Positions 12,641-59,322 of a DNA stretch of 64,000 nucleotides are shown piece by piece. This stretch comes from Sphingorhabdus sp. 109 (GTDB lineage Bacteria; Pseudomonadota; Alphaproteobacteria; Sphingomonadales; Sphingomonadaceae). The stretch covers positions 1,641,138 to 1,705,137 of the forward strand of contig NZ_LR732707.1 in assembly GCF_902506555.1 (NCBI RefSeq). The letters run 5' to 3'. The translations under genes and the position numbers were made by a program. Position 1 is the stretch's first letter. Every line of letters begins with the position of its first letter. The notes beneath the pieces are model-generated. The model was not told the origin of the DNA. It did not search any database and was given only the letters and a program-made list of their open reading frames with translations.

Positions 12641-12663
12641 GGACTTTTCTCTCTCTTTGGATG

Positions 12664-18952: not shown

Positions 18953-19028
18953 TGTTCATCGGCGGGCAATCGCCGTTCGACTATTTCCGCTCGCATATGG
19001 CGTATTATTTTTGCAATACAGTAAATTG

Positions 19029-21140: not shown

Positions 21141-21227
21141 ACCCGCGCGGGGGATCCCGCCTAACAAAAAAGCAGGAAATTAGGCCTTTGATTCCCCTCG
21201 CCTTTCCGCCTAAAGCTGTTCGCTTCT

Positions 21228-23795: not shown

Positions 23796-23940
23796 TAATT
23801 TCGCCACGATGTCGATATTCTCCAATCCAAGACTCGGATTTTGAAGCTAACTAGTGTAGTTATAACAATATTCTGGGTCGCGATTTATATTGTCAAAGTC
23901 TGAGGGGGCTTTGCAATACACAAAATTGTGGGAGAATATC

Positions 23941-29114: not shown

Positions 29115-29901
29115 AAATGTTCTGGCATCGACCGGACGAATTCTTCCCGGCTTTGCGAAAGCGGCTCTCGGTACGGTTCTGCTGTTCGGCGCCGGTAGCG
29201 TCGCACTGGCCCAAAATATGATTGTGCGCTCGACCGGACCTTCCGCCAGCGCCTATCCGGCGGGCAAGAAAATGGGCAATAACGCGAAAATCACGCTGAA
29301 GGCCCAGGACAAGGTCACGATTTTGACCCAGTCGGGAACGCGCGTCCTGTCCGGTCCCGGCACCTATTCGCTGGCCAAGGGAAGCGGCTCGACATCAAGC
29401 GCCTCAACCCGGCTGTCCAGCTTCATCAACAATCGCGGCAGCCGCCGGGCCAGAACCGGAGCGGTTCGCGGCGACAGCAGCGCTGCGGTGATCACGCCGA
29501 ACAATCCCAATCTCTGGTTTCTCGACGTGACCAAGGGCGGGAAATTCTGTGTTACCAATCCGAACGGCCTGGTGGTCTGGCGGCCGGACTATACCGGCTC
29601 GGCAACCGCCTCGATCGTCGAACCGACGACCGGCAACGTGACCGAGATCGCCTGGCGTAAAGGCAATCCGCTGAAGGCCTGGCCGAAGGATGTTCTGCCG
29701 GTGACCAACGGTGCGAGCTATCGTCTGCTCGGTTCGAACGTACCACAATCGGTCGAGGTGGATTTCGTGGTTCTGGAGACGGAGCCGGCTGATCTTGACG
29801 ACACGGCCGCTGTGCTGATCGAGAAAGGCTGCACCGGCCAGCTGGATCTGCTGGTCGAGACGCTCAATGCAAATAACGAGGAACCGGCTGAACAGGGCTA
29901 G
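29101..29901 (+). CDS. Exported FecR-like domain protein
   Basis: 266 residues from MHLDKNVLAS; the ATG at 29101 has GGAGAAAGC upstream, and the frame also allows an ATG at 29089. A signal peptide ends near VALAQ. KKMGNNAKITLKAQDKVTIL, then SGTRVLSGPGTYSL, is the FecR-type beta block. A Ser/Arg-rich linker follows, then a second beta-rich part with two Cys. It overlaps the cyclase 3' end by 14 bp. FecR-like proteins of this kind are periplasmic and lack the anti-sigma helix. It might sense or scaffold the secreted protein. Confidence 0.7.
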   Translation: MHLDKNVLASTGRILPGFAKAALGTVLLFGAGSVALAQNMIVRSTGPSASAYPAGKKMGNNAKITLKAQDKVTILTQSGTRVLSGPGTYSLAKGSGSTSSASTRLSSFINNRGSRRARTGAVRGDSSAAVITPNNPNLWFLDVTKGGKFCVTNPNGLVVWRPDYTGSATASIVEPTTGNVTEIAWRKGNPLKAWPKDVLPVTNGASYRLLGSNVPQSVEVDFVVLETEPADLDDTAAVLIEKGCTGQLDLLVETLNANNEEPAEQG

Positions 29902-29914
29902 GCTCTGGGTGTAT

Positions 29915-29946
29915 TCTGCCGATCCGGCCGACCGCCGGACGGCAGA
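29915..29946 (+). promoter_or_regulatory. Intra-operon hairpin before tpsB
   Basis: TCTGCCG (29915-29921) pairs with CGGCAGA (29940-29946), and inside, TCCGG (29923-29927) pairs with CCGGA (29935-29939), with one bulged A and a 7-base loop: 12 GC-rich pairs. It sits in the only sizeable gap of the operon, 100 bp between the FecR-like gene and tpsB. No T-run follows, so it is more likely an mRNA stability or attenuation element than a terminator. Confidence 0.5.
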
Positions 29947-30001
29947 GCCGCTCTGGTGGTTCCAGGGGCCACACCGGGATTGCCAAAAAACGGGGACATA
30001 T

Positions 30002-31795: not shown

Positions 31796-31844
31796 CGCCG
31801 ATTTTCAACATTAGACCAGCCGCAATGCAAACGAGGACAGGATC

Positions 31845-43632: not shown

Positions 43633-45084
43633 ATGAATGACACTGCCGCGCAACCGCTGAAACTGTTCAACAGCCTGACTCGCCAGATGGAAGAGTTCGT
43701 GCCCGTCCACCCGGGCGAGGCGCGCGTCTACACCTGCGGACCAACGGTCTATAATTATCCCCATATCGGGAATATGCGCGCCTATGTGTTCGCCGATCTA
43801 CTTGGCCGCACTTTGAGCTGGAAGGGCTACAGGCTCACCCATGTCATCAATATCACCGATGTCGGCCATCTGACCGACGATGCGGATGAGGGCGAAGACA
43901 AGCTGGAGAAGATGGCGGCGGAAAAAGCCCAGTCGATCTGGGATATCGCGAAACATTATACCGAGGCTTACTGGCAGGATATTAAGGCACTCAATATCCG
44001 GCAGCCGGCCCACTGGTCGATCGCCACCGACTATGTTCCGGCGATGATCGAATATGCCAAGGGCATCGCCGACAAACATTGCTACGAACTGGAAAGCGGC
44101 CTCTATTTCGATGTGTCGACCGTGGCAAATTATGGCACGCTCGCCCGCGCATCGACCGAAGACGGTGAAGGACGGATCGACACGGTAGAGGGCAAACGCA
44201 ACGCCGCCGATTTCGCTATCTGGCGCAAGACACCGCCGGGAGAGACACGGCAGATGGAATGGGACAGTCCCTGGGGCAAGGGCGCGCCGGGCTGGCATCT
44301 GGAATGTTCGGTGATGTCGGAAGCGCTGCTTGGCCTGCCGTTCGATATTCACACTGGCGGCATCGATCATCGCGAGATTCACCATCCCAACGAGATTGCC
44401 CAGAACCAGGCGCATAGTTGTTCCGACCACAGCGGCGCGAAAATCTGGATGCACAATAATTTCCTGATCGACCGGACCGGAAAAATGTCCAAGTCGTCGG
44501 GCGAATTCTTGCGGGTGCAACTGCTGGTCGACAAGGGCTTTCATCCCCTCGCCTATCGCCTGATGTGTCTGCAGGCTCATTATCGCAGCGAGTTGGAGTT
44601 CAGCTGGGAAAATCTGGCGGCGGCGCTGACCCGGCTGAAGCGTATCATCATGGGCGTTGAACGGCTGCGCGACAAGGCAGACGGACAGACGGCGGCGATA
44701 GACCATCCCGCACTGGTGCAGTTGCGCGACAAATTTGACGCTGCGCTGAGCGAGGATCTGAACAGTTCAAAAGGCCTGCCGCTGCTCGAAGAACTGCTCT
44801 CGCTGAAGAAACTGCCGGCCGGGCAAAGGCTCGCGCTGCTGACCGAAATGGAATCGGTCTTGGGGCTGGAACTGACCGGCCTGACGCGCGATCAATTGCG
44901 GGTGCGGCCGACCGCGGCGGAACTGGACGAACGCGATATCGAGGCAAAGCTCGACCAGCGCCAGCAAGCGAAAGCGGCGAAAGATTTTGCCGCCGCAGAC
45001 ACAATCCGCGACGAGCTGACCGCAAAAGGCGTGGAGCTTATGGACGGCGACCCATTGCGCTGGGACTGGGCATTAACGGTTTAG
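43633..45084 (+). CDS. cysS: Cysteinyl-tRNA synthetase
   Basis: 483 residues. CGPTVYNYPHIGNMR holds zinc ligand Cys35 and the HIGH-type motif HIGN (44-47). WHLECSVMSEALLG supplies a second zinc Cys. KMSKS lies at 284-288. It charges tRNA-Cys with cysteine in the cytoplasm. Length is close to the family norm. It lies 58 bp after the end of the TPS operon; a separate promoter is likely because it is a housekeeping gene. Confidence 0.98.
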   Translation: MNDTAAQPLKLFNSLTRQMEEFVPVHPGEARVYTCGPTVYNYPHIGNMRAYVFADLLGRTLSWKGYRLTHVINITDVGHLTDDADEGEDKLEKMAAEKAQSIWDIAKHYTEAYWQDIKALNIRQPAHWSIATDYVPAMIEYAKGIADKHCYELESGLYFDVSTVANYGTLARASTEDGEGRIDTVEGKRNAADFAIWRKTPPGETRQMEWDSPWGKGAPGWHLECSVMSEALLGLPFDIHTGGIDHREIHHPNEIAQNQAHSCSDHSGAKIWMHNNFLIDRTGKMSKSSGEFLRVQLLVDKGFHPLAYRLMCLQAHYRSELEFSWENLAAALTRLKRIIMGVERLRDKADGQTAAIDHPALVQLRDKFDAALSEDLNSSKGLPLLEELLSLKKLPAGQRLALLTEMESVLGLELTGLTRDQLRVRPTAAELDERDIEAKLDQRQQAKAAKDFAAADTIRDELTAKGVELMDGDPLRWDWALTV

Positions 45085-45188
45085 ACTTTTCCCCGGATGC
45101 CTGCGCGCAATCGGGACCATTCACGCAGGGACAGGAGGGAACGTCAGATTCCCCCCTTGCACAAACAGATTTTAGGAGGCGATATATT

Positions 45189-46139
45189 ATGACTGCCAAA
45201 CCCAAAGCCGCCATGGCTTCCCTTGTTCGGCCGATGATCGAACCGCATTGCGGCGACCTCGACGTCACCTGGTTCACCAGCACCGAAGAAGCCATGGAAG
45301 TTGCCCCGCATGCCGAAATCGGCTGGTTTGATATGTATGACAAAGACAAGATGGCCGCAATCATCTCCGCCGCGACCAATCTCAAATGGCTCAACAGCAT
45401 CTATGCCGGGGTTGAACATTTCCCGCTCGAGCAGCTCAAGTCCCAGGGCACGATCCTGACCAACGGAGCCGGGCTGAACAGCGCGCCGATCGCAGAATTC
45501 GCCATCATGCTGATGCTCTCTGCCGCCAAGCGCAGCGATGTAATATTTGACAACCAGCGCCAGCACAACTGGCTCGAAACCGCTCCGGGCACGGTGGAGA
45601 TTGACGACAGCAAGGCGCTGATCATCGGCTATGGCGGGATCGGCCAGCAGATCGCGAAAAAGCTCTCCGGCTTTGACGTCGACGTGACCGCCGTCCGCCG
45701 CACCGCGACCGGCGAGTCCCATGTCATCGGGCTCGATGACTGGCGCGACCGGCTCGGCGAGTTCGACTGGGTGTTTGTGTCCGCCCCGGCGACCAGCGAC
45801 ACCCGGCATATGTTCGGCGCGGACGAATTTGCCGCGATGAAATCTTCCGCCTGGCTGGTCAATGTCGCGCGCGGGTCGCTGGTCGATCAGGAGGCACTGA
45901 TCAAGGCCCTCAACGACAAGGCGATCGGCGGAGCCGCGCTCGATGTCGCCGATCCGGAACCGCTACCCGCCGACCATCCCTTGTGGGACGCGCCCAACTG
46001 TCTCATCAGCATGCATCTGTCCGGGGTCGCGCAAACGCGGATGTTCCAGCGCGCCGCCGCCCGCTTTGTTGAAAATCTCAAACGCTATCGCGGCGGCGAA
46101 GAGATGATCGCCGTCGCCGACTTCGACCGGGGATATTGA
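45189..46139 (+). CDS. D-2-hydroxyacid dehydrogenase family protein
   Basis: 316 residues, preceded by a perfect AGGAGG. The NAD-binding loop is GYGGIGQQIAKKLSGFDVDV, the catalytic Arg lies in NVARGSLVDQEAL, the Glu in DVADPEPLP and the His in LISMHLSGV. Members interconvert 2-oxo and D-2-hydroxy acids. The substrate is not evident. It precedes a ThDP enzyme and an aldehyde dehydrogenase, but the 144-bp gap makes operon membership uncertain. Confidence 0.9.
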   Translation: MTAKPKAAMASLVRPMIEPHCGDLDVTWFTSTEEAMEVAPHAEIGWFDMYDKDKMAAIISAATNLKWLNSIYAGVEHFPLEQLKSQGTILTNGAGLNSAPIAEFAIMLMLSAAKRSDVIFDNQRQHNWLETAPGTVEIDDSKALIIGYGGIGQQIAKKLSGFDVDVTAVRRTATGESHVIGLDDWRDRLGEFDWVFVSAPATSDTRHMFGADEFAAMKSSAWLVNVARGSLVDQEALIKALNDKAIGGAALDVADPEPLPADHPLWDAPNCLISMHLSGVAQTRMFQRAAARFVENLKRYRGGEEMIAVADFDRGY

Positions 46140-46283
46140 GGGGGTGACTCCCCGGGGTTTTTGACTTACCATCCAATTAGATAGGGGTAGAGTGAGTCTC
46201 ATTTCTGAGGGGGATTGGGGGTCATTGGGGTCGTTGCCATTACTCGCACTCAAGCTGGTCGTCACGACCAGGGAAGGACCCAC

Positions 46284-47930
46284 ATGACCAAAGCATCCGA
46301 TCTGTTCGTAGAATGTCTCGAGAATGAAGGCGTTGAGTATCTGTTCGGCGTTCCCGGTGAAGAAAATCTCGACATGCTCGACAGCCTGTCGCGCTCCAAG
46401 AAAATCAAGCTCATTCTTACCCGGCACGAACAGGGCGCCGGCTTCATGGCAGCGACCTACGGCCGCCACACCGGCAAGACCGGCGTCTGCATGGCAACGC
46501 TCGGCCCCGGCGCGACCAATCTGGTCACCGCCGCGGCTTATGCCCAGCTCGGTGGCATGCCGATCCTGATGGTCACCGGCCAGAAGCCGATCAAGAAATC
46601 CAAACAGGGCCGCTTCCAGATTCTCGACGTCGTCGACATGATGGGGCCGATCACCAAATTCACCCACCAGCTGGCTTCGGCCGACAATATTCCGAGCCGC
46701 GTCCGCGAAGCGATCCGGCTGGCCGAGGAGGAGAAGCCCGGCGCTACCCATATCGAGTTCCCCGAGGATATTGCCGACGAGGAAACCGATTCCACCCCGA
46801 TCGCGCCCAGCCTGACCCGCCGTCCGGTGGCCGAGGCAAAGGCGGTTCGGGCCGCGACCAAGAAGATTGAAAATGCCAAATCACCGATCATTGTTGTTGG
46901 TGGCGGCGCCAACCGGACCACCACCGGCCGCATGCTGACGCAATTTATCGAGAAGACCGGTATTCCGTTCGTCACCACCCAGCTCGGGAAGGGCGTGGTC
47001 GATGAAACCAACAAGGAATTCATGGGTTGCGCGGCACTATCGGCGAATGACTTCGTCCATCGCGCGATCGAGGCCGCCGACCTGATCATCAACGTCGGCC
47101 ATGACGTGATCGAAAAACCACCTTTCTTCATGGCCCCCGGCAGCACCGAAGTGATCCACGTGTCGATGAACAGCGCCGAGGTTGATCCGGTCTATTTCCC
47201 GCAGATCGAGGTAATCGGCGATATCGGCAACGCCATCTGGCAAATGAAGGAAGATATTGTTCCGTCCGGCAGCTGGAATTTCGACGCCATGTACAACGCA
47301 CGTCGCGCCGAGGAAGAACATACGGACTCGATGGACGATGATCTGCGCTGCCCGATCTATCCACCGCATCTGGTCAAGGTCGTCCGCGAGGCGATGCCCG
47401 CCGATGGCATCATCTGCCTCGATAACGGCGTTTATAAAATCTGGTTTGCCCGCAATTACAAGGCGCGTCAGGCCAATACGGTGCTGCTCGACAACGCGCT
47501 GGCGACCATGGGTGCCGGCCTGCCCTCTGCCATGGCATCGGCGATGGTCTATCCCGACCGCAAGGTCATGGCGATCTGCGGCGATGGCGGCTTCATGATG
47601 AACAGCCAGGAGATGGAAACCGCTGTCCGGTTAAAGCTCAACATCACCGTGCTGGTTCTCAACGATAGCAGCTACGGCATGATCCGGTGGAAACAAGCCA
47701 ATATGGGCTTTGATGACTGGGGACTGACTTATGGCAATCCGGATTTCGTAAAATATGCGGAAAGCTACGGGGCCAATGGCTACCGGATCAGCAGCGCCAA
47801 GAATCTGCAGGAAACGATTGATCATTGCCTTGGCACCGACGGCGTCCATCTGATCGACTGTCCGGTTGATTATTCGGACAATGATCGCATCCTGAACCAC
47901 GAAATCAAGGAACTCAGCGCGAAGGTTTGA
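46284..47930 (+). CDS. Acetolactate-synthase-like thiamine diphosphate enzyme
   Basis: 548 residues from MTKASDLFVECLENEG, AGGGAAGG upstream. The catalytic Glu49 is in TRHEQGAGFMA and the ThDP-Mg motif starts GDGG at 433 and runs to LNDSSYG. Overall it matches the large subunit of acetolactate synthase. No small regulatory subunit (ilvN) follows; an aldehyde dehydrogenase does. It may therefore be a catabolic synthase or a different 2-oxoacid decarboxylase/carboligase rather than the branched-chain amino acid enzyme. Confidence 0.85.
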   Translation: MTKASDLFVECLENEGVEYLFGVPGEENLDMLDSLSRSKKIKLILTRHEQGAGFMAATYGRHTGKTGVCMATLGPGATNLVTAAAYAQLGGMPILMVTGQKPIKKSKQGRFQILDVVDMMGPITKFTHQLASADNIPSRVREAIRLAEEEKPGATHIEFPEDIADEETDSTPIAPSLTRRPVAEAKAVRAATKKIENAKSPIIVVGGGANRTTTGRMLTQFIEKTGIPFVTTQLGKGVVDETNKEFMGCAALSANDFVHRAIEAADLIINVGHDVIEKPPFFMAPGSTEVIHVSMNSAEVDPVYFPQIEVIGDIGNAIWQMKEDIVPSGSWNFDAMYNARRAEEEHTDSMDDDLRCPIYPPHLVKVVREAMPADGIICLDNGVYKIWFARNYKARQANTVLLDNALATMGAGLPSAMASAMVYPDRKVMAICGDGGFMMNSQEMETAVRLKLNITVLVLNDSSYGMIRWKQANMGFDDWGLTYGNPDFVKYAESYGANGYRISSAKNLQETIDHCLGTDGVHLIDCPVDYSDNDRILNHEIKELSAKV

Positions 47931-47941
47931 ACGATATACCT

Positions 47942-49381
47942 ATGACCAAATTGAAAGATGTCTATCCGCTCTATCTCAACAATGAAGCGGTGCAACCCAA
48001 TAGCGACCTGGAAGTCACCGACAAATATACCAATGAAGTGGCGTTCCGGACCGCCTTGGCAACACCCGAGGTCATCGACGAAGCAATCGCGGGGGCGGTA
48101 GCCGCCACCGAACCGATGGCAAAATTGGCCAGTTACGAGCGGCAGAACGTGCTGCAGCATTGCGTCGACCGGTTCACGGAGCGCTATGACGAGCTGGCCT
48201 ATTCCCTGTGCGTAGAAGCGGGCAAGCCGATCAAGGATGCAGAAGGGGAAGTGGGGCGTCTGATTGATACTTTCCGCATCGCTGCAGAGGAATCCGTCCG
48301 CAATTATGGCGAAGTGCAACCGCTCGATATATCGCCGCGCGCCAAAGGCTATATGGGCATGTGGAAACGGGTACCGATCGGCCCCTGCAGTTTCATTTCA
48401 CCGTTCAACTTCCCGCTCAATCTGGCCGCACATAAAGTTGCCCCGGCGATAGCCGCGGGCTGTCCGTTCGTGATGAAGCCGGCCAGCAAGACACCGCTGG
48501 GCGCCATCATCATGGGCGAAATATTGGCAGAAACCGATCTGCCGAAAGGCGCCTTCTCGATTCTGCCCGCTAGTCGAGATGGCGCCGACCTCTTCACCAC
48601 CGACGAACGGCTGAAACTGCTGTCCTTCACCGGATCGCCGGGCGTCGGCTGGGACCTGAAGGCCAAGGCCGGCAAGAAACCGGTCATACTGGAGCTCGGC
48701 GGCAATGCCGCCGTCGTCGTCGATCATGATGCCGATCTGGAAGATGCGCTCGAGCGAATTGTCTTCGGCGCCTTTTACCAGTCGGGCCAGAGCTGCATCG
48801 GCGTGCAGCGCATCATCATCCACGAAAGCATCTACAACAGGTTCAGGGACATGCTGGTTGCGAAGACCAAAACGCTGATCGCGGGGGATCCGAAGGACCG
48901 CGATACGTTCATCGGCCCGATGATTTCCGAAGGCGAAGCCAGCCGCCTGCATGGCTGGATCGAGAGCGCCGTGGCCGGTGGCGCAACGCTGCTGTGCGGC
49001 GGCAAGCGCGAGGGCAATATGCTCGAGGCGACACTGTTGGAAAATGTCGACACCAGCGCCGATGCCTATCGCGAGGAAGCCTTCGGTCCACTCGCCCTGC
49101 TCTCCAGTTTCAGCGATTTCGGTACCGCGATGGACGAGGTCAACGACAGCAAATTCGGACTGCAGGCCGGCATCTTCACCCGCGATATCTTCAAGTCGCT
49201 GGATGCCTGGGATCGGCTTGATGTCGGTGGCGTCGTGATTAATGACGTGCCGTCCTACCGGGTCGACAATATGCCCTATGGCGGGGTCAAGGACAGCGGT
49301 CTCGGCCGCGAGGGCATTAGATTCGCGATCGAGGACATGACAGAAATCCGCAATCTGGTGATCCGGCGCAAACCTGACTAG
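47942..49381 (+). CDS. NAD(P)-dependent aldehyde dehydrogenase
   Basis: 479 residues from MTKLKDVYPLYLNN; a TTG at 47927 overlapping the previous stop is the alternative start. General-base Glu251 lies in LELGGNAAVV and the nucleophile Cys285 in GQSCIGVQR; ISPFNFPLNL and FTGSPGVGWDL form the cofactor site. NVPSYR/MPYGGVKDSGLGREG-type C-terminus resembles the lactaldehyde/phosphonoacetaldehyde/non-phosphorylating GAPDH group. It is the immediate partner of the ThDP enzyme, so it may oxidise that enzyme's aldehyde product (inference). Confidence 0.88.
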   Translation: MTKLKDVYPLYLNNEAVQPNSDLEVTDKYTNEVAFRTALATPEVIDEAIAGAVAATEPMAKLASYERQNVLQHCVDRFTERYDELAYSLCVEAGKPIKDAEGEVGRLIDTFRIAAEESVRNYGEVQPLDISPRAKGYMGMWKRVPIGPCSFISPFNFPLNLAAHKVAPAIAAGCPFVMKPASKTPLGAIIMGEILAETDLPKGAFSILPASRDGADLFTTDERLKLLSFTGSPGVGWDLKAKAGKKPVILELGGNAAVVVDHDADLEDALERIVFGAFYQSGQSCIGVQRIIIHESIYNRFRDMLVAKTKTLIAGDPKDRDTFIGPMISEGEASRLHGWIESAVAGGATLLCGGKREGNMLEATLLENVDTSADAYREEAFGPLALLSSFSDFGTAMDEVNDSKFGLQAGIFTRDIFKSLDAWDRLDVGGVVINDVPSYRVDNMPYGGVKDSGLGREGIRFAIEDMTEIRNLVIRRKPD

Positions 49382-49591: not shown

Positions 49592-50998
49592 ATGCACATG
49601 GGGGAAAAATTTTCGAGGATGCCCGGCTGGTCTGTACTGGCCGCTGGTCTGTTCTGTTCGGCCCTGGTCGCAACGGCATTATTTGTCTCGACCATGGCCA
49701 GCCCCGAACCAGTGGAAGCCGCCAGCGATCTCGCCCGCGGCACCCATCTCGGCGTGGCGACCTGCGGCGGGTCGACCTGTCACGGGCGACAGGAAGCCGA
49801 TGGCGAAATCGTCCGGCAGGACGAAATCATGCGCTGGCAGGAAGAATCCACCCCCGGCGGCGCGCATAGCCGCGCTTTCCGCGTCCTGCGCGAACCGCGC
49901 AGCATCGCAATCGCCCAGCGACTCGGTATCAAGGACGCGGCATCCTCGGCCGAATGTCTCGGCTGTCACAGCACTGCGGCGGCCAGCAAGGGCCCGCGCT
50001 TCCAGCTGAACGACGGAGTCGGTTGCGAATCCTGTCACGGAGCATCCTCCGGCTGGCTCTCCAGCCATTATGCGGTCGGCGCTAGCCACGCCCGCAATGT
50101 ATCGCAGGGCCTGATCCCGCTCGACAATCCCAAGGCCCGCGCCAGCGTCTGCCTGGACTGCCATTTTGGCAGCGCCAAGCAAGGCCAGTTCGTCGACCAC
50201 CGGATCATGGCCGCCGGACACCCCCGCATCTCGTTCGAAATGGACCTGTTCTCCACCCTGCAGCAGCATCATGACGAGGATATCGACTATATCCGCCGCA
50301 AGGGCCGGACCAACAGCGTCCAGTTCTGGGCGGTCGGCCAGGCGATGGCGCTGGAGCGTTCGCTCAACCTTTTCACCAAGCCGGCCATTGCCACCGAAGG
50401 CATTTTCCCGGAATTCTATTTCTACGACTGCCACAGCTGTCACCGCCGTATCTATGACAGTGCCTCCGCGCGTCCGAGCTCGGTCGACAATCCCGGACGC
50501 CCGATCCCCGAAGGCATGCCGCCCTATAACGACGAGAATATGATCATGCTGAGCGCCGCAATCAAAGTCGCTGCGCCGGACATTGCGGATGAGTTCGACA
50601 GCCGCTCCAGAGCCTTTCACGCCGCCATGGCCCAAGGCCGTGGTCCGGCGGTCGCAGAAGCCGCCCGCTTGCGGCAATATGCGGCGCAGCTCGCCGACCG
50701 CTTCTCCCGCGCCAGCTTTGGCCGCGACCAGACCTTCCGGATCATGGAGACCATTGCCGGGCAGGCAATCTCGCCCCGCTTCACCGATTATGAGGGCAGC
50801 GTGCAGGCGGTCATGGCAATCGACACCTTGCTCAATGGTCTGGTCAATGGAGGCCAGGTCAGTGAATCCGCCGCCACCAGTCTGCGCGGACAGATTAATG
50901 TCGCTTATGCAGCGGTTGCCGAGCCCAATAGCTACGAGCCGCTGAAATTCCGCCGCGCCTTGGGTAGCGCGGTCCGCACGATCCGGTCGCTGAGATAG
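49592..50998 (+). CDS. Pentaheme cytochrome c, cytochrome c554-like
   Basis: 468 residues with an N-terminal signal anchor/peptide (about 12-44). Heme motifs: CX4CH at 58-64 (CGGSTCH) and CXXCH at 122, 145, 187 and 280, five in all. HRIMAAGHPRISFEMDLFST between the fourth and fifth is the typical c554-family block with an axial-ligand His. The C-terminal third is helical without hemes. It is periplasmic or membrane-tethered. Alternative ATGs at 49598 and 49619 would only shorten the n-region. It heads a four-gene operon. Confidence 0.88.
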   Translation: MHMGEKFSRMPGWSVLAAGLFCSALVATALFVSTMASPEPVEAASDLARGTHLGVATCGGSTCHGRQEADGEIVRQDEIMRWQEESTPGGAHSRAFRVLREPRSIAIAQRLGIKDAASSAECLGCHSTAAASKGPRFQLNDGVGCESCHGASSGWLSSHYAVGASHARNVSQGLIPLDNPKARASVCLDCHFGSAKQGQFVDHRIMAAGHPRISFEMDLFSTLQQHHDEDIDYIRRKGRTNSVQFWAVGQAMALERSLNLFTKPAIATEGIFPEFYFYDCHSCHRRIYDSASARPSSVDNPGRPIPEGMPPYNDENMIMLSAAIKVAAPDIADEFDSRSRAFHAAMAQGRGPAVAEAARLRQYAAQLADRFSRASFGRDQTFRIMETIAGQAISPRFTDYEGSVQAVMAIDTLLNGLVNGGQVSESAATSLRGQINVAYAAVAEPNSYEPLKFRRALGSAVRTIRSLR

Positions 50999-51009
50999 GA
51001 GACCCGGTG

Positions 51010-53049
51010 ATGCGCAAACCCTTTTTCACCTCTGCCCTTTCCGCCGCTGCGTTGGTTTTGACGTCCTGTGGTGGCGGCGGAGACAGCAATGATTTTGGCG
51101 GCACGCCTTCACCCGCACCGTCGCCGACGCCCGCGCCCACTCCGCCGGCAACCGGAACCGGCGGCCTGTTCGCGGCACCGGCACAGCGGTCTCTGACTGT
51201 TGCCGATGTGCAGACAATCATCGCCCAGGCCGTTGGCGAAGCGCAGGCCCGCAACCTGCCCTCGGTGATCGCCGTGGTCGACCGCGTCGGCAATGTTCTG
51301 GCCGTGTTCGACATGAACGGGTCGAACGGCGGGTCGTCGGAGATCACGATCAGCAACCGGCAGATTGGCGGCCTTGCCGGTCCGGCCGATCTGGTCGGGC
51401 TGCAGGGCCAGCAGGTCCCGGCTGCGGCTGCGGCGATCGCCAAGGCGGTAACCGGAGCCTATCTGTCGAGCAGCGGCAACGCCTTCTCCTCGCGGACCGC
51501 CAGCCAGATCGCCCAGGAACATTTCCCGCCTGCACCGACGACTGTCGGGCTGGAAAGCGGCCCGCTTTTCGGTGTCCAGTTCAGCCAGCTGCCCTGCTCC
51601 GACCTCTCCCAGCGTTTCAACGCAATGGGCGGCACGGGTGCGCTGATCGGTCCGAAACGGTCGCCGCTCGGCCTCGCCGCCGACCCTGGCGGGATGCCGC
51701 TTTACAAGGACGGCGTTGTTGTCGGCGGGATCGGTGTCATGGGCGATGGCAACTATGGTTTCGATCCCAATATTCTCGATGTCGACAATGATGACGAGGA
51801 AGCCATTGCGCTGGCCGGCATACAAGGTTTTGCGCCGCCCGCCTCGATCGCTGCCAACCGGATTTCGGTCGACGGCACATCCTTGCGGTTCAGCGATATG
51901 GTGGTCTCCGACCTGTCACCGCTGCAGAATAATTTTGCCGCTATCAATACAGCCGCAGTCGGCCAGCTGATCACGGTAACGGGCTATACCAATGGTACGA
52001 TCATTGCCGGCACCGCTTACGGAACGGAAGCCTCCGGCATCCGGGCGTCGAAAACCACAGAGTTCAGCAATAGCGATGCCTTTGTCCTGACCGATGGCAG
52101 TGGCGCCAACCGCTATCCGATCCGTGGCGGTACCGATGCCGCGGCAGTGACCACCCCGCTGACCGCAAGCGAAGTGCGGGCGATACTTGAGGAAGCCTTT
52201 CTCGTGATCAGCCGCGCGAGAGCGCAAATCCGCCAGCCGCTCGACAGCCGCATGCAGGCGACCGTCAGCGTGGTTGATACCCGCGGCCAGATATTGGGCA
52301 TCGTCCGCACACCGGACGGTCCTGTTTTCGGCACCGATGTGTCCCTGCAAAAGGCGCGAACGGCGGCCTTTTTCTCCGGCGCAGTCGCCGGCCAGGAATT
52401 GCTCGCCACACCGGTATTTGCGCCCTTTGCCAATGTGCCGGCCCATGTTCAGCGGGTACGCGATTTTCTTGGCGATCCCAATGCCCTGACCGGCACGGTC
52501 GCCTTTGCCGACCGCTCGGGCGGCAATCTGGCCCGCCCCTATTTTCCGGACGGTGAAATCGGGCGCCCGCCCGGACCGCTGTCGATCGAACAATCTTCGC
52601 GCTTCAGCCCGTTCGCGGTTGGCCTGCAGCTTGATCTGGTCTTTCCCAATATTGTTCAGCATGTCGGCTTTGTCCGCTCCGGAGGCGTCAGCGCCGACAC
52701 TGACCAGCGCTGCACCCAGTTGCCGGCGATAGCGGGAACCGGCGGCCAGAACCGCCTTTCCAACGGCATGCAGATTTTTCCGGGCAGCGTCCCGATTTAT
52801 CGCGGTAACACGCTCATCGGCGGCATCGGTGTTTCCGGTGACGGCATCGACCAGGATGACATGGCGAGTTTCCTCGGCCTTCACAATGCGGGGGTGCGAC
52901 TGGGTACGATTGGCAACGCGCCGAAAGCGATCCGTGCCGACAATGTCGTTGTCGATCTCGGCAATGCCAACGTCCGGCTGCGCTATGTGAACTGTCCCTT
53001 CGCGCCGTTCCTGGACACCAGCGAACAAAATGTCTGCGAGGGATTATAG
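51010..53049 (+). CDS. Lipoprotein with two HbpS/GlcG-like domains
   Basis: 679 residues. Start ATG with AGGAG 8 bases upstream; a GTG 3 bp earlier also fits. The lipobox LTSC is at about residues 16-19, followed by Gly and a Pro-Ser-Thr linker. Two HbpS/GlcG-like (heme- or ligand-binding) domains are seen: about 60-160 (VADVQTIIAQAVGEAQARNL, VIAVVDRVGNVLAVF) and about 385-500 (ASEVRAILEEAF, TVSVVDTRGQILGIV). Each is followed by a stretch ending in GGIGV-GDG. It contains no CXXCH. The next gene overlaps its 3' end by 20 bp. Confidence 0.75.
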   Translation: MRKPFFTSALSAAALVLTSCGGGGDSNDFGGTPSPAPSPTPAPTPPATGTGGLFAAPAQRSLTVADVQTIIAQAVGEAQARNLPSVIAVVDRVGNVLAVFDMNGSNGGSSEITISNRQIGGLAGPADLVGLQGQQVPAAAAAIAKAVTGAYLSSSGNAFSSRTASQIAQEHFPPAPTTVGLESGPLFGVQFSQLPCSDLSQRFNAMGGTGALIGPKRSPLGLAADPGGMPLYKDGVVVGGIGVMGDGNYGFDPNILDVDNDDEEAIALAGIQGFAPPASIAANRISVDGTSLRFSDMVVSDLSPLQNNFAAINTAAVGQLITVTGYTNGTIIAGTAYGTEASGIRASKTTEFSNSDAFVLTDGSGANRYPIRGGTDAAAVTTPLTASEVRAILEEAFLVISRARAQIRQPLDSRMQATVSVVDTRGQILGIVRTPDGPVFGTDVSLQKARTAAFFSGAVAGQELLATPVFAPFANVPAHVQRVRDFLGDPNALTGTVAFADRSGGNLARPYFPDGEIGRPPGPLSIEQSSRFSPFAVGLQLDLVFPNIVQHVGFVRSGGVSADTDQRCTQLPAIAGTGGQNRLSNGMQIFPGSVPIYRGNTLIGGIGVSGDGIDQDDMASFLGLHNAGVRLGTIGNAPKAIRADNVVVDLGNANVRLRYVNCPFAPFLDTSEQNVCEGL

Positions 53050-55159
53050 GGTAATGGCGGGACTTTCAGCCTCCTTTGTACCGATCCTGGCGGTGATGTC
53101 TGGCCAGGCCGAACAAATGGAACAGGAGCGCGCCTCGGTCGAGCAGATGGAAGCGTCGCTGACCGCCCTTCTTGCCGGAGAAGATTTCGCCTGGTTGCGC
53201 ACGGATTCGACCGGAATTGGTACAGAAATGGCCATGGGAGGCCCCGATCCGGCCGAAGAAGAGGCAGAAAAGAACGAAAAATCTGCGGCCGAACCCGCGA
53301 CCGCGAAAGATGCTTCCAATTCTTCCATTGTGGCGCCACCCGGCACTCCCGATCCGCTCGACACAGACATTGAAAGCCTGACCGCTGACGATGCCCTGAT
53401 CGACGGCCGCCGCCGGCCTGGCGTGCAGAAAAGACTGCCCGACCGGGTGACCCAGAATAACCCCGGCGCGGTCAACGCCCCGCCGCCGGAAGCCTTTCCA
53501 ACCGACGAATTTCCGGTCCCCGACCGCTGGCGTATTCTGCAGAGCCTTTGCCCAGCGAAAGGCGGCGATGAATCGATCTACACATTGTTCGGGGCGCTGC
53601 GGAACAACTGCCACAGCACGCTCAACCCCTATAACCAGAATGTGCTGAAAGGCGACAAGCCGATCCCGGCCGACAAAAAACCCGGCTTTCTCAAGGGTGA
53701 CGATTGGTTCTTCGTCGCCAATGCAATTTCCGATACGGTAATCGAACCCCGCAGTTTTCCGATCCCCGTCGGCGTCCAGACCACCGAACGACCAAATAGC
53801 ATCGACGTGTTCGGCCGCTCCGGTTCGGAAGTCTATGCCCAGACGTTCATCACCGGCTTTGCCCTGATCAAGGGCTCCACCGCCTACAAGCCACCTGATG
53901 TGGAATATCGCCTGACTTTGGCGACCCAGGTCAATCATGTGAATGTCCCGGAACGCCGGGTTCTGTTCGTAGAACCATCCAAATCCTCGCACCGCACCGA
54001 CTGGTTTGTCGGCGTGCAGGAGGCGTTTTTCGACTATCATATCCGCAACACTTCGGCGCGCTATGACTTTGACAGTTTTCGCATCGGTATCCAGCCGATG
54101 CAGGCCGATTTCCGCGGTTTCCTGTTCCAGGACAACCAGCTCGGTTTCCGCTTGTTTGGAACCCGCGACAACAACCGGATCCAGTACAATCTCGGCGCCT
54201 TTGTCCAGCTGGAAAAAGATACCAATTCCGGTTTCAACGATATCACCCAGACCCCGCGCGAAAGCTATATTTTCTTCGCCAATCTCTATCGCCAGGATCT
54301 GCCCTTCGTCGGTCTGACGAGCCAGTTCAGCGTGACCTATAATATGAACCGCGAAAAGTCCGATATCGAGATTGACGACAACGGTTTTCCGGTCCGCCCT
54401 GCCCTGCTCGGCGATCTCCGGGGCCGCGCCTATGACGTCGTCTATCCCGGCTATGCCTTTGACGGGCGGATCGGGCGGATCAATCTGACGGGTCAGGTTT
54501 ACGGCGCCTTTGGCGAGGACCGGAACAGCTTCTTCACCAGCGAACCGGCAAAAATCGAAGCCTATTTCGGCGCGCTGGAAGCGAGCTATGACGTCGACTT
54601 CCTGCGCTTCCGCGCCTCCGGCCTGTTCGCCAGCGGTGACGGCAATCCCTATAATAATACCGAAGCCGGCTTTGATGCAATCTTCGAAAATCCGATTTTT
54701 GCCGGCGCCGACACCAGCTACTGGATCCGCCAGACCATCCCGTTTGCCGGCGGCGGCAGGGTGATCTCGATTAACGGCCGCAACGGTATCCTAAACTCGC
54801 TCCGTTCGTCCAAGGAACAGGGCCAGAGCAATTTCAACAATCCCGGCACGATACTGGCGGGCGTCGGCGTCGACGCTGATCTGACGCCCGATTTCCGGCT
54901 GTCTGGCAACGCCAACCATCTCTGGTTTCACAAGACCGAGAGTCTCGAAGCCCTGCGCGTCGAGGGTTCTATTCCAAAGGACATCGGCTGGGATCTCTCG
55001 TTAGCTGCCATTTACCGCCCGAAAGCCACGCAGAATATGGTATTCCGCCTCTCGGGCGCTGCTTTGATACCCGGAAAAGGATTCAAGGATTTGTTTGACC
55101 AGACCGACAAACGCGACTTCCACTATTCGATCCTGCTCAATGCGATATTGGCTTTCTGA
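53030..55159 (+). CDS. Outer-membrane beta-barrel protein of the cytochrome operon
   Basis: 709 residues. I keep the ATG at 53030 because it supplies a basic n-region to the signal peptide (VMAGLSASFVPILAVMSGQA); an ATG at 53054 is possible. A charged, coil-like and acidic segment (about 28-100) leads to a barrel of alternating strands (RLTLATQVNHVNV, YDFDSFRIGIQPMQADFRGF, YIFFANLYRQDLPF, AYFGALEASYDVDFLRFRA) ending in Phe (LLNAILAF). No plug domain and no heme motif. Its TGA overlaps the ATG of the decaheme gene. A pore for a cytochrome is inferred from context. Confidence 0.75.
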   Translation: MSARDYRVMAGLSASFVPILAVMSGQAEQMEQERASVEQMEASLTALLAGEDFAWLRTDSTGIGTEMAMGGPDPAEEEAEKNEKSAAEPATAKDASNSSIVAPPGTPDPLDTDIESLTADDALIDGRRRPGVQKRLPDRVTQNNPGAVNAPPPEAFPTDEFPVPDRWRILQSLCPAKGGDESIYTLFGALRNNCHSTLNPYNQNVLKGDKPIPADKKPGFLKGDDWFFVANAISDTVIEPRSFPIPVGVQTTERPNSIDVFGRSGSEVYAQTFITGFALIKGSTAYKPPDVEYRLTLATQVNHVNVPERRVLFVEPSKSSHRTDWFVGVQEAFFDYHIRNTSARYDFDSFRIGIQPMQADFRGFLFQDNQLGFRLFGTRDNNRIQYNLGAFVQLEKDTNSGFNDITQTPRESYIFFANLYRQDLPFVGLTSQFSVTYNMNREKSDIEIDDNGFPVRPALLGDLRGRAYDVVYPGYAFDGRIGRINLTGQVYGAFGEDRNSFFTSEPAKIEAYFGALEASYDVDFLRFRASGLFASGDGNPYNNTEAGFDAIFENPIFAGADTSYWIRQTIPFAGGGRVISINGRNGILNSLRSSKEQGQSNFNNPGTILAGVGVDADLTPDFRLSGNANHLWFHKTESLEALRVEGSIPKDIGWDLSLAAIYRPKATQNMVFRLSGAALIPGKGFKDLFDQTDKRDFHYSILLNAILAF

Positions 55160-58100
55160 TGCGCTGGCGGAACCGTTTGACCGGCAATAGCAAATTGTTC
55201 CTCGCGGGTCTGGGCGCGCTGGCCTTGACCGTCACTCCTGCCTCGCTGCTGCTCGCCGCAGGCAAGGAAAAGCCACAAAAGGTCGATTACAGCTTTACGC
55301 CTCCCGCCCCGCAAAACCAGACCTGGGACGAGGCGCAAGCCAAGAGCAGCGGCTGCCAGAGCTGTCACACCGACAGTGACCAGAAAACCATGCATGAAAC
55401 GCCCGCAGTGGTTCTCGGCTGTGTCGATTGTCACGGCGGTGACGCGTCGGTCATGGGCGATAACAATTGGGGCAAGAACAGCCTCGCCTATATGGACGCG
55501 CTGACCAAGGCCCACGTCCTGCCCAAATATCCCGAAAGCTGGCACTGGCCCTCCTCCGCCAATCCCAAGCGCAGCTATGGTCTGCTCAACAAGGAATCGC
55601 CCGAATTCGTCCGGTTCGTCAATCCGTCGGACTATCGCGTGGCCCGCGAATCCTGTGGCGCCTGCCATATGGAAATCATCGAGGCCTCGGAGCGGTCGCT
55701 GATGGCCACCGGTGCCATGCTGTGGGGCGGAGCCGCTTATAACAACGGCATTGTACCATTCAAAAATTACATCTTCGGCGAGGCCTATACCCGCAAGGGC
55801 GAGCCGGCGACGATCAAGTCACCCGGCAACCCGCACGGCACCGTGACAGAAGCCGAAAAGAAACGCGGCGCGCTGCCGATCCTCTACCCGCTCCCGACCT
55901 GGCACACGGTTCCACCAGGCGATATCTTCCGCGTGTTCGAGCGCGGTGGCCGCAATATCAATACACAGTTCCCGGAAATCGGACTGCCCAATATCGGCGG
56001 CATCATCCAGCGCCTCGAAGAGCCGGGACGGCCCGACCTCAAGCAATCCAATCGTGGCCCGGGAACCGGCCTGCGCGTGGCCATTCCGGTTCTCAATATC
56101 CACAAGACCCGGCTCAACGACCCGTTCATGTGGTTCATGGGCACCAATGACCAGCCCGGCGACTATCGCCAGTCCGGCTGTGCCGGCTGCCACGTCGTCT
56201 ATGCCAATGACCGCGAACCGCGACACAGCTCGATCTGGGCCAAATATGGCCGCGACGGACAGACCCAGACGGTTGACCCGACAATCCGCAATCTGAAAGA
56301 GGGCGAGCATCGTATTGGCGGCTACGGCAGCTATGATGCGGCTCACGGTGCCGAGGACTACCATGGCGAAGACGCCGCCCATGGCGACGATCATGGCGGC
56401 GACACGGATCCTGCCAAGCGCGAAAAAGGCCATCCGATACAACATGCCTTCACCCGAGCCATCCCGACCGCCCAGTGCATGAACTGCCACATGCACCAGC
56501 CGAATATATTCCTGAACAGCTATCTCGGCTACACGATGTGGGACTATGAATCCGACGCGCCCTATATGTGGCCCGGTCCGGACAACAAGACGCCCAAGCC
56601 CGAAGGCATGAGCGACGAGGAGTATCAGAAGACCTACAAGCAGCAGAAATATCCGGATGCGGAGGAAGTCCGCAAAGTGCTCGACCGCAATCCGGAAGGT
56701 GCCGCGCCCAAAGGTCTCTGGGCTGACATTGATTTCCTGCGCAATGTCTACGACGTCAATGACGACGCCAAGGACACGCAATTTGCCGACTATCACGGCC
56801 ATGGCTGGAATTTCCGGGCGATCCTGAAACGGGACCGCGACGGCAATCTGCTCGATGCCGAGGGCAATCAGGCAAGCTACAGCACCGATACCGACAATAT
56901 CGTCGCCCATGACGATCCGGAGAAATTCCGCAAGGACGGCGAAGGGAAATTTGTCGAACCGGGTATAAATCCGGGAAAATCGGTCCACATGATGAGCATC
57001 CATGCCGAAGTCGGCATGCAGTGTGCCGATTGCCATTTTGGTCAGGACAGTCACGGCAATGGCCTGATATACGGCGAGGTTGCCAATGCGGTGGAAATCA
57101 GCTGCAAGGACTGCCACGGCACCGCCGATGCCTATCCGACACTATTGACCAGCAATCTCGCGGCACGGCCAAAAGGCAGCAATCTTGGTCTTCTGCGCAA
57201 CGCCAATGGCGAGCGGCGCTTCGAATGGTTCGAGAACCCTGCAGGCAAGCGCGTTCTGATCCAGCGGTCCATCGTCGACCCCGACCTTCGCTGGCAGGTC
57301 AGTCTGGTCAAGGATAGTGTCGACCGGTCGCATCCCGACTTCAATCTCAAGGCCGCGCGGGCGAAGCTGATGTCGAAAAGCGGAGCAGAAACGGGGAAAT
57401 ATGCATTCGGAAGCGGCGTTCCGAAGGAAGAACGGGCGCACAAAAACGAGAATATGGTCTGTTTCACCTGTCATCTCAGCTGGACGACAAGCTGTGGTGG
57501 CTGCCATCTGCCAATCGAGGCCAACTGGCAGGCCGACAGCCATAAATATGAGGGTGGCACGACCAGAAACTATGCGACCTATAATCCCCAGGTCGCCCGC
57601 GACCAGATGTTCCAGCTCGGCCGTCACCAGACCAGCAAGGGCAATGTCATCGCTCCGGTCCGCTCCACGTCGGCCCTGATCCTGTCCTCGACCAATATCA
57701 ACCGCGAACGCATCTACGTCCAGCAGCCCCCGATTTCCGGGATCGGTTTCTCCTCGCAAGCTTTTGCTCCACATTTCCCCCATACGGTGCGCAAGACCGA
57801 GACAAAGCAATGTTCGGATTGTCACGTCAGCGAAGCCAATGACAATAATGCGATCATGGCCCAGACGCTGCTGCAGGGTACAAATTTCGTCAATTTCATC
57901 GGCCTCCACGCCTGGGTCGGTCTTGAGAAAGGGTTTGAAGCGGTGCGGGTTACCGAATGGGACGAGCCGCAGGCTGTCATCGGCTCCTATCTGCAGAAAT
58001 ATGCCTATCCAGATTACTGGCGGATGCATGTCGAAAATAACAACCGCGAACTGATCGACTGGGTCCGCGGCGAGAGGCTCGACAAGAATCTTTCTGGAGA

Positions 58101-59322
58101 AACCAAAGCGCTCGAAGAGTTCAAGAATGTCGTCCAGGGTACCAAGGATGCCGTCCGGTGTCTGCAGTTGCGCGGTGAATATATGTTCGTCGCCGAGGGA
58201 AAAGGCGGCTTCCGTGCCTATGACGTAGCCTCGATCGGAAACAAGGGATTCTCCGAGCGCATCGTCAAAGCGCCATTTTCCTCCCTGGGTCATGACACGC
58301 ATGTCGATACCAAGAACGCGACCTGCATGGCGCTGGCCACCAACCAGCCGATTGCACCAACCCGCAACACTGAAGAACTGCGGGAGATCAACGAAGAACA
58401 GGCGTTTCATCCGATATATAATTATGCGGTCATCACCGACAGCGAAGAAGGACTCATTCTGGTCGACGTCAATACGCTGGCCGATGGCGAGTTCCGCAAT
58501 AATTTCTTCAAGCGCAGCCTGACGTGGAACGAGGACGGGGTGCTCGACGGCGCGCAGCACATTACGCTGGCCGGCCATTATGCCTATATCACAACCACTG
58601 CCGGCCTGACGCTGATCGATCTCAATGAACCGCTTAAACCGCGCCATGTCATCACTATTCCGATGACCGATGCCAGAGCCTCGGCCTTGCAATTCCGTTA
58701 TCTCTGGGTAACCGATAGCGATGGCGTGAAACTGTTCAATGTGACCGACATGGAAAACCCGGTCGCCGTGCCATCCGGTACGATCCCTTTGCGCGATGCC
58801 CGGCGTATCTATCTCGCCCGGACTTATGCCTATATCGCCGCCAAGGACGAAGGTCTGGTGATTGCCAATATAACGCGGCCCGAAACGCCGACCGTCTACC
58901 TGAAGGAGACTTTCGGCGGGACGATGAACGATGCAGAGGATGTCATAGTCGGCTCGACCAATGCCACATTATTTGCCTATGTCGCCGACGGCCGTAACGG
59001 CCTGAAGGTGATCCAGTTGACCACGCCCGACAGCCAGAAAAACTATTATGGTTTTTCGCCCGCGCCGAAGCCGGAACTCATCGCCTTTGCCCGCACGCCG
59101 AAACCGGCTCTGGCCCTGTCCAAGGGACTGGATCGCGATCGTGCGGTCGATGAAACCGGCGGACAGATGGCGGTATTCGGACGACTCGGTTCCCGCCCCT
59201 TCACCCGCAGCGAGATGCAGCGTTTTTACCTCAACAGCAGAGGCGAGACCTATTTCGTCAGGGACGAGCCGGATATTGCCGACTGGATCGGGCCCGTACC
59301 GGAGCTGCTTGCGAACCGCTGA
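55159..59322 (+). CDS. Decaheme cytochrome c fused to LVIVD-type beta-propeller
   Basis: 1,387 residues with a signal peptide to about residue 34. Ten CXXCH motifs start at residues 66, 88, 166, 341, 440, 622, 649, 768, 779 and 885. A His-rich stretch (396-412, AHGAEDYHGEDAAHGDD) lies between the fourth and fifth. From about 1,030 to 1,330, LVIVD-like blades follow (GLILVDVNTLADGEF, AYITTTAGLTLIDLNEPLKP, LWVTDSDGVKLFNVTDMENP, AYIAAKDEGLVIANITRPE, VADGRNGLKVIQL). It is exported, probably to the cell surface. ATG overlaps the barrel stop. Confidence 0.9.
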   Translation: MRWRNRLTGNSKLFLAGLGALALTVTPASLLLAAGKEKPQKVDYSFTPPAPQNQTWDEAQAKSSGCQSCHTDSDQKTMHETPAVVLGCVDCHGGDASVMGDNNWGKNSLAYMDALTKAHVLPKYPESWHWPSSANPKRSYGLLNKESPEFVRFVNPSDYRVARESCGACHMEIIEASERSLMATGAMLWGGAAYNNGIVPFKNYIFGEAYTRKGEPATIKSPGNPHGTVTEAEKKRGALPILYPLPTWHTVPPGDIFRVFERGGRNINTQFPEIGLPNIGGIIQRLEEPGRPDLKQSNRGPGTGLRVAIPVLNIHKTRLNDPFMWFMGTNDQPGDYRQSGCAGCHVVYANDREPRHSSIWAKYGRDGQTQTVDPTIRNLKEGEHRIGGYGSYDAAHGAEDYHGEDAAHGDDHGGDTDPAKREKGHPIQHAFTRAIPTAQCMNCHMHQPNIFLNSYLGYTMWDYESDAPYMWPGPDNKTPKPEGMSDEEYQKTYKQQKYPDAEEVRKVLDRNPEGAAPKGLWADIDFLRNVYDVNDDAKDTQFADYHGHGWNFRAILKRDRDGNLLDAEGNQASYSTDTDNIVAHDDPEKFRKDGEGKFVEPGINPGKSVHMMSIHAEVGMQCADCHFGQDSHGNGLIYGEVANAVEISCKDCHGTADAYPTLLTSNLAARPKGSNLGLLRNANGERRFEWFENPAGKRVLIQRSIVDPDLRWQVSLVKDSVDRSHPDFNLKAARAKLMSKSGAETGKYAFGSGVPKEERAHKNENMVCFTCHLSWTTSCGGCHLPIEANWQADSHKYEGGTTRNYATYNPQVARDQMFQLGRHQTSKGNVIAPVRSTSALILSSTNINRERIYVQQPPISGIGFSSQAFAPHFPHTVRKTETKQCSDCHVSEANDNNAIMAQTLLQGTNFVNFIGLHAWVGLEKGFEAVRVTEWDEPQAVIGSYLQKYAYPDYWRMHVENNNRELIDWVRGERLDKNLSGETKALEEFKNVVQGTKDAVRCLQLRGEYMFVAEGKGGFRAYDVASIGNKGFSERIVKAPFSSLGHDTHVDTKNATCMALATNQPIAPTRNTEELREINEEQAFHPIYNYAVITDSEEGLILVDVNTLADGEFRNNFFKRSLTWNEDGVLDGAQHITLAGHYAYITTTAGLTLIDLNEPLKPRHVITIPMTDARASALQFRYLWVTDSDGVKLFNVTDMENPVAVPSGTIPLRDARRIYLARTYAYIAAKDEGLVIANITRPETPTVYLKETFGGTMNDAEDVIVGSTNATLFAYVADGRNGLKVIQLTTPDSQKNYYGFSPAPKPELIAFARTPKPALALSKGLDRDRAVDETGGQMAVFGRLGSRPFTRSEMQRFYLNSRGETYFVRDEPDIADWIGPVPELLANR

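Follow-up and report, generated by a model that had tools for sequence, protein, structure and literature searches.

Gene content of the outer module

The 64,000 bp stretch of Sphingorhabdus sp. 109 analyzed here (the window; contig NZ_LR732707.1, positions 1,641,138 to 1,705,137) contains four genes, called mhc5, glcG2, barrel and mhc10, that encode two multiheme cytochromes, a lipoprotein and an outer-membrane beta-barrel. The initial annotation had described these as four coupled genes for a candidate new porin-cytochrome electron conduit. All four open reading frames (ORFs) were found where it had placed them, on the + strand and nearly touching: mhc5 and glcG2 are separated by 8 nucleotides (nt), while glcG2 and barrel overlap by 20 nt and barrel and mhc10 by 1 nt. 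The identities that it had assigned (pentaheme cytochrome, double HbpS/GlcG-like lipoprotein, barrel and exported decaheme cytochrome) were confirmed by motif counts, Pfam matches and a structural model. The four genes are real and conserved, but the set described there is not complete, as partner genes lie outside the window. The four window genes are only the outer half of a larger system. Their features are as follows:

49592-50998, + strand: mhc5, exported pentaheme c-type cytochrome, cytochrome c554-like (ORF, motif count, profile match)
51007-53049, + strand: glcG2, lipoprotein with a double HbpS/GlcG-like region; lipobox Cys21 at 51067-51069
53030-55159, + strand: barrel, outer-membrane beta-barrel; 18 strands modelled in residues 226-708, N-terminus of low confidence
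54632-54847, + strand: barrel residues 535-606, the longest loop (conservation profile)
55159-59322, + strand: mhc10, exported decaheme cytochrome with C-terminal LVIVD repeats and no lipobox (motif count, Pfam)

The mhc5 protein (468 amino acids, aa) contains four CXXCH motifs, at residues 122, 145, 187 and 280, and one CX4CH motif at residue 58, and is on this count a predicted pentaheme cytochrome. Ten CXXCH motifs are found in mhc10 (1387 aa), at residues 66, 88, 166, 341, 440, 622, 649, 768, 779 and 885. In shuffled sequences of the mhc5 and mhc10 compositions, chance CXXCH motifs had means of 0.008 and 0.009, respectively. Alignments show six invariant histidines outside the motifs of mhc5 (plus one at 96%) for five hemes and 17 in mhc10 (plus one at 96%) for ten hemes. 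Among PDB sequences, the mhc5 profile matches cytochrome c-554 (1bvb, E=3e-7), to which mhc5 appears to be distantly related; against TIGR03508, it scores 21 bits (cut-off 192). The mhc10 protein begins with a hydrophobic signal that lacks a lipobox cysteine and carries LVIVD repeats at its C-terminus. Its profile has zero matches among PDB sequences at E≤0.01, and its NCBIfam matches are all far below cut-off, with the best being ExtM (E=5.8e-17, 61 bits, cut-off 800).

Four stretches of glcG2 match the Pfam HbpS-like family, and the lipobox cysteine (C21) is invariant in 26 aligned sequences. Matches of the glcG2 profile in the PDB include EfgA, a chain named as a cobalamin adenosyltransferase and an extracellular heme-binding protein. 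EfgA is a formaldehyde sensor. The Pfam annotation and the heme-binding protein match would fit a role in surface heme or iron handling, in which the HbpS-like lipoprotein would bind or degrade heme and the cytochromes would provide the electrons for heme cleavage or Fe(III) release. We consider this role very improbable, as the HbpS-like domain family has other roles too and the annotation of two homologous loci, L031 and L032, shows neither a TonB receptor nor an iron gene in the stretch.

Structure of the barrel

The barrel protein has no Pfam or NCBIfam match at E≤1, and its profile has zero matches among PDB sequences at the same threshold. An AlphaFold model (50 sequences; predicted local distance difference test score (pLDDT) 64, predicted template modelling score (pTM) 0.63) has 18 strands in residues 226-708, with residues 1-166 and 568-600 being of low confidence. 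The top structural matches to this model are AlgE chains (E ~1e-15, TM ~0.6 by target), followed by Occ/OprD channels; MtrB is absent among the best 50 of 837 matches. Because the model is 18-stranded and AlgE/Occ-like, and because MtrB is not among the matches listed, a cytochrome wire inside the barrel lumen is unlikely, and the candidate of an MtrAB copy with a lumen-threaded cytochrome is weakened to the extent that a model of moderate confidence allows. Of the barrel-cytochrome conduit first envisaged, the coupling of exported multiheme proteins to an outer-membrane barrel stands, while the MtrAB-style lumen cytochrome finds no support in the model.

The longest loop (residues 535-606), which would be extracellular if the barrel termini are periplasmic, has a conservation of 0.80 versus 0.70 for residues 226-709 overall (40 sequences). 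A short loop on the same side (residues 359-366) reaches 0.93, and the remaining outer loops range from 0.46 to 0.76. The conserved loop 535-606 may either fold into the lumen or bind a conserved partner.

Distribution and conservation of the outer module

A survey of operon conservation had been suggested as a check and was carried out. When the barrel was used as a query, 75 of 296 genomes of the order matched, all of them in the window's own family, which is probably the Sphingomonadaceae in the broad sense. Sixty loci from the 74 other barrel-positive genomes, together with two plasmid loci, make up a set of 62 sphingomonad loci. All four genes are present in the same order in 60 of these; the exceptions are L050, which starts at a contig end near the glcG2 start, and L086, which lacks glcG2. 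The ten CXXCH motifs of mhc10 are found in 62/62 loci. Of the 61 loci with mhc5, 60 show its 4+1 motifs; in the exception, L089, mhc5 is split across two frames (12570-13960), which appears to be a frameshift or sequencing error. Other genes lie between glcG2 and barrel in L068 (7117-8521) and L072 (5726-8603); these ORFs are on the opposite strand and one encodes a lipoprotein-like protein of ~245 aa.

The barrel profile also matched 29 of the 385 genomes examined from the class. In a phylum-wide draw of 398 genomes it matched 12, two of them outside the class. A second set of 28 distant loci was drawn entirely from outside the window's family. In this set, glcG2 is present in 28/28 loci and mhc10 in 27/28, with the remaining locus (L155) ending at a contig end. 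In a scan of named contigs, the best 80 of 523 confirmed matches are in records labelled as sphingomonads or with broader metagenome-assembled genome (MAG) labels. The closest of these 80 is Parasphingorhabdus flavimaris (94%). Sphingobium, Sphingopyxis and Novosphingobium, all known chiefly for aerobic degradation, are among the named carriers, and the genes are present in cultured strains. The genes had been assigned to a group not known for extracellular electron transfer. This holds insofar as a single related literature statement was found, that PCC3 hosts include an Erythrobacter sp. (He et al. 2017, PMC5566968, main text); the set is, however, not confined to one group.

The inner module

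In 24 of the 28 distant loci, an extra protein of 547-689 aa with ten CXXCH motifs, designated mhcX, is encoded upstream of glcG2. Its N-terminal domain matches FHA and YscD weakly (the FHA match being near cut-off) and is accompanied by one transmembrane segment and a C-terminal decaheme part. Because ten histidines beyond the ten CXXCH motifs are invariant in 20 aligned sequences, all ten predicted hemes can be bis-histidine. Two further genes, cytb and cNMPox, are found in the same 24 stretches as mhcX. Among the remaining four loci, contig ends truncate L138, L141 and L159, for which mhcX is found on another contig of the genome; in L153, mhcX is not within the 19.5 kb fetched, the rest of that genome not having been searched. 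The window's genome holds this inner module at C2:3345613-3351773, 1.65 Mb from the window genes, where it encodes cNMPox (816 aa), cytb (293 aa), mhcX (601 aa) and a calcineurin-like phosphoesterase (282 aa). The best match of the phosphoesterase is SpdA (E=1.8e-41), followed by CpdA (E=1.3e-23), both below the curated cut-offs.

Two WX3HX13H patterns are found in 60/60 cytb orthologues of at least 240 aa and an SGXXG motif in 56/60. The paired pattern was read as two b-type hemes by He et al. (2017, PMC5566968, main text), and cytb, a b-type-cytochrome-like membrane protein, is expected to hold two b hemes. The cNMPox protein, whose gene adjoins cytb, contains Rossmann motifs of the FAD and NAD(P) types, two cyclic nucleoside monophosphate (cNMP)-binding domains and a PF13247 match at residues 675-731, and lacks a transmembrane helix. 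In 16 sequences, the Gly-Glu and Arg of both phosphate-binding cassettes are invariant, as are 16 cysteines in four groups; we take the cassettes to be nucleotide sites and the cysteines to hold four [4Fe-4S] clusters. The "different periplasmic partner" mentioned in the initial annotation has a candidate in mhc5, but mhc5 is not the sole candidate, as mhcX, cytb and cNMPox belong to the system too.

Linkage of the inner and outer modules

The barrel and mhcX are present in an identical 75 of the 296 genomes of the order (Fisher p 3e-72). Although phylogeny was uncorrected in this test, two identical lists of 75 genomes rule out chance co-occurrence. The two genes are within 15 kb of each other in 40 genomes, 15-50 kb apart in three and farther apart on a shared contig in 13; in the remaining 19 genomes, each is on a contig of its own. 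The halves are separated in 35 genomes, and the inner module was fetched from 20 of these as well as from the window's own genome and G254: cNMPox, cytb and mhcX occur together in 22/22, with the phosphoesterase also present in 21/22. At class level, 37 genomes have mhcX, and these include every one of the 29 that have the barrel. Mirror-tree comparison of the barrel and mhcX gave r=0.77 for 53 genomes, 0.84 for 22 separated genomes (Mantel p=0.0005) and 0.85 for 31 linked genomes, a correlation of distances that a shared species tree alone would also yield. Within at least six genera (g2, g3, g4, g6, g7 and g16, with 20 of the 221 negative genomes listed), the marker pair is both present and absent.

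Both modules are also found on plasmids: 13 plasmid records, among them L031 (NZ_CP020539.1), carry the barrel and 12 carry mhcX. The 12 with both genes are Sphingobium records, and Sphingopyxis indica pMC4 carries the outer module only. In L202, the outer and inner modules lie within 22 kb in a MAG titled "uncultured Parasphingopyxis sp. isolate Biocath_Alpha_32"; its link to a biocathode comes from this title alone.

Seven of the eight mhcX-only genomes of the class were inspected (G517 was left out). Three loci (L162, L163 and L164) encode cNMPox, cytb, mhcX and mhc5 together with a 5-heme protein of 604-641 aa and a porin-like protein of ~535 aa. L168 is similar, with cNMPox not in the stretch; across these four loci the porin-like protein measures 526-538 aa. 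The stretches of L165 and L166 contain the inner module and mhc5 and no such outer set. L167 ends at a contig end beside a glcG2 gene, and its barrel may have been lost only from the assembly.

A predicted electron transfer chain

Based on these results, we propose that the two modules form a cyclic-nucleotide-regulated outward chain that connects NAD(P)H with a multiheme complex in the outer membrane, with an acceptor at or beyond the cell surface, a proposal to which we give about an even chance of being correct. In this chain, cNMPox would take electrons from NAD(P)H and hand them to cytb, whose two b hemes would pass them to mhcX, an FHA-like–transmembrane–decaheme anchor. Periplasmic mhc5 would relay electrons from mhcX to the outer membrane. 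There, mhc10 would act with the barrel and the HbpS-like lipoprotein as a terminal complex and donate electrons to an acceptor on the cell surface or beyond it. The activity of the chain would be set by a cyclic nucleotide; in sphingomonads, this nucleotide would be made by a CHASE2 cyclase encoded in the window and removed by the SpdA/CpdA-like phosphodiesterase. From the gene content, domains, invariant candidate ligands and co-occurrence that were observed, we infer the contacts between the parts, the order of the relay, its outward direction, the gating, the surface exposure and the acceptor. The original conduit idea is partly supported: it gains in that the path predicted between NAD(P)H and the outer membrane is complete, and loses in that the barrel is unlike a cytochrome sheath.

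The CHASE2 cyclase is the candidate source of the cyclic nucleotide. A homologue of this protein (E≤1e-80) is present in 51 of 226 genomes, specifically in 43 of 49 barrel-positive versus 8 of 177 barrel-negative genomes, a split that assumes that the 226 drawn genomes are those with handles up to G225. In 28 genomes, no more than 30 kb separates the homologue from the barrel, and in six more (34 in total) it is near mhcX only. A more specific form of the outward chain would be a switchable conduit, in which a cyclic nucleotide directly opens cNMPox, which then drives electrons by way of cytb and mhcX into an independently evolved outer complex, in aerobic alphaproteobacteria and beyond, with sphingomonads having their own cyclase and phosphodiesterase genes. 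We hold this version only tentatively and think it somewhat doubtful.

Several observations weigh against the proposed chain. First, CHASE2 homologues are present in the eight barrel-negative genomes noted above, and the phosphoesterase is found in only one of the 28 distant loci; a local pair of cyclase and phosphodiesterase is thus, at best, something added within one family (the sphingomonads), with the cNMP domains being core. Second, mhc5 is within the fetched stretch of only 16/28 distant loci, and the eight mhcX-only genomes of the class have no barrel match. Third, a barrel as narrow as the 18-strand, AlgE-like model leaves electron passage across the outer membrane unexplained. Fourth, neither mhc10 nor mhc5 has a recognised lipobox, so that nothing puts either cytochrome on the surface (a lipobox-pattern count for mhc5, 38/61, was set aside because the pattern fits the first heme motif too). 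Fifth, mhc10 is more like an enzyme than a wire by its residues per heme and its conservation. It has 139 residues per heme, compared to 60 for mhcX and 94 for mhc5, which is far above the wire-like ratios of 22-39 for PCC3 and ~33 for MtrA (He et al. 2017, PMC5566968, main text), and in the distant loci no other part is conserved as strongly (median 58%). An AlphaFold model of mhc10 residues 37-996 had a pLDDT of 39.6 and was not interpreted.

Much of this evidence would suit a dedicated reductase, in which mhc10 and the HbpS-like lipoprotein form an outer-membrane or periplasmic enzyme that draws on the same inner chain to reduce a specific compound, the barrel is the channel that lets this compound in or out and no electrons leave the cell. 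An 18-strand barrel with AlgE and Occ/OprD as its best matches, the low heme density and top conservation of mhc10, its 17 invariant non-motif histidines for ten hemes and the absence of a recognised surface signal on either cytochrome all point this way. Nevertheless, mhc10 matches no known catalytic family (at E≤0.01 in the PDB, and far below cut-off in NCBIfam), and the lipoprotein and barrel are kept beside it in nearly all loci. We regard the reductase as unlikely, though it is the strongest rival of the outward chain.

The direction of flow could also be the reverse, with mhc10 oxidising an extracellular donor (Fe(II), Mn(II) or a cathode) and electrons passing to the quinone pool or NAD(P)+. 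The PCC3 and PCC4 models of He et al. (2017, PMC5566968, main text), which include the same type of inner-membrane protein, are consistent with such an inward conduit, as is the Biocath_Alpha_32 title of one relative. The entry protein, however, is an NAD(P)H-type flavo-iron-sulfur protein with nucleotide-binding domains, which would be more natural on the donor side. In addition, the hosts among the named scan matches belong mainly to genera regarded as aerobic heterotrophs, and overall an inward conduit seems improbable.

If the outward chain is correct, a quarter of the sampled genomes of the order (75/296) hold an undescribed NAD(P)H-to-outer-membrane electron route. Within the literature searched (the supplement of He et al. 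apart), it would also be the first such chain recognised with cNMP-binding domains in the electron-entry protein.

Neighbouring genes

The CHASE2 cyclase gene is part of a block of its own (window 23890-43574), made up of the following genes:

23890-27060, + strand: CHAT-domain protein; homologue in the fetched stretch of 7/62 sphingomonad loci
27060-29114, + strand: CHASE2 and class III nucleotide cyclase (domains, homologue census)
29089-29901, + strand: small protein, probably exported, in most cases next to the CHASE2 gene; no Pfam match
29867-31795, + strand: ShlB/FhaC-type two-partner secretion transporter (domains)
31845-43574, + strand: giant protein of 3909 aa with six cysteines and no CXXCH, presumed transporter cargo

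The giant protein is presumably the cargo of the ShlB/FhaC-type transporter, and the CHAT protein may be functionally linked to the system. In Sphingobium L031, the block adjoins the conduit genes. In Sphingobium herbicidovorans, most of the block and both the outer and inner modules are within 32 kb on one megaplasmid typed as conjugative, where the CHAT gene is cut by the edge of the stretch. In the window, cysS and genes for a hydroxyacid dehydrogenase, a thiamine pyrophosphate enzyme and an aldehyde dehydrogenase (43633-49381) part the giant gene from the outer module. The giant protein, cysS and dehydrogenase genes of L258 and L260 adjoin the inner module instead. Upstream of the block, window positions 17742-23051 contain CobS-like (17742-18734) and CobT-like (21228-23051) genes around a penicillin-binding protein gene (19011-21140), an ordinary set.

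Comparison with known systems

The MtrCAB, PioAB and MtoAB systems share with the proposed chain the logic of an inner-membrane donor, a periplasmic multiheme relay, a barrel and a terminal multiheme protein; they differ in that the barrel model here is 18-stranded and AlgE-like and the terminal cytochrome is not a lipoprotein. A search of the window's genome with MtrB_PioB (PF11854) gave zero matches at E≤0.001, with one of 14 control genomes matching and none over cut-off, so that there was no positive control. MtrA/DmsE (TIGR03508) likewise gave zero matches at this threshold, with two of 14 control genomes matching and none over cut-off. Membership of the MtrB/PioB or MtrA/DmsE families was rejected on this basis, though the controls held no strong positive. 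The Geobacter Omb-Oma-Omc and Ext systems are similar in combining a barrel with multiheme proteins, and mhc10 resembles ExtM; however, mhc10 is far below the ExtM family cut-off and the barrel has no family match, OmbB and ExtI themselves not having been compared.

In a literature search that left most subscription papers and all preprints outside, no description of the gene set was found, PMC5566968 apart. The remaining comparisons use the main text of that paper (He et al. 2017). PCC3 is similar in having a barrel, extracellular and periplasmic multiheme proteins and an inner-membrane protein of ~300 aa. However, as many as 42 transmembrane regions are given for the PCC3 barrels and medians of 34 and 21 hemes for the PCC3 cytochromes, whereas the present system has 18 predicted strands, sets of 10, 10 and 5 hemes and a high residue-to-heme ratio. 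The direction proposed for both PCC3 and PCC4 is inward.

PCC4 consists of a porin, three periplasmic multiheme proteins (4, 5 and 10 hemes), other redox genes and an inner-membrane protein that bears one SGXXG and two WX3HX13H motifs, with a pfam13247 iron-sulfur gene in Subgroup II (PMC5566968). The ~300 aa cytb, with its SGXXG and two WX3HX13H motifs, corresponds to the PCC4 inner-membrane protein, and cNMPox corresponds to the pfam13247 gene beside it. The main text lacks the words cyclic, NMP and GlcG; a supplementary domain figure may show cNMP domains. The heme set here is 4+1 (mhc5), 10 (mhcX) and 10 (mhc10) rather than 4, 5 and 10. We infer from gene content, and not from accessions in the paper, that L162-L164 are PCC4 loci. 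Their 604-641 aa 5-heme protein is not in the present gene set, whose outer module has glcG2, a different barrel and the LVIVD decaheme protein in place of the 5-heme protein and ~535 aa porin of PCC4. The barrel profile showed no relation to the porins of L162, L163, L164 and L168 (probability 0.2%). Because the inner part and mhc5 match while the barrels show no relation, the system is a sister variant of PCC4 and not a member of it. As a candidate conduit, it departs from published PCC4 in its outer module and, as far as the main text shows, matches it in its inner module and mhc5. If the proposed chain is correct, PCC4-type inner modules also work with a second kind of outer module, and such chains would be modular.

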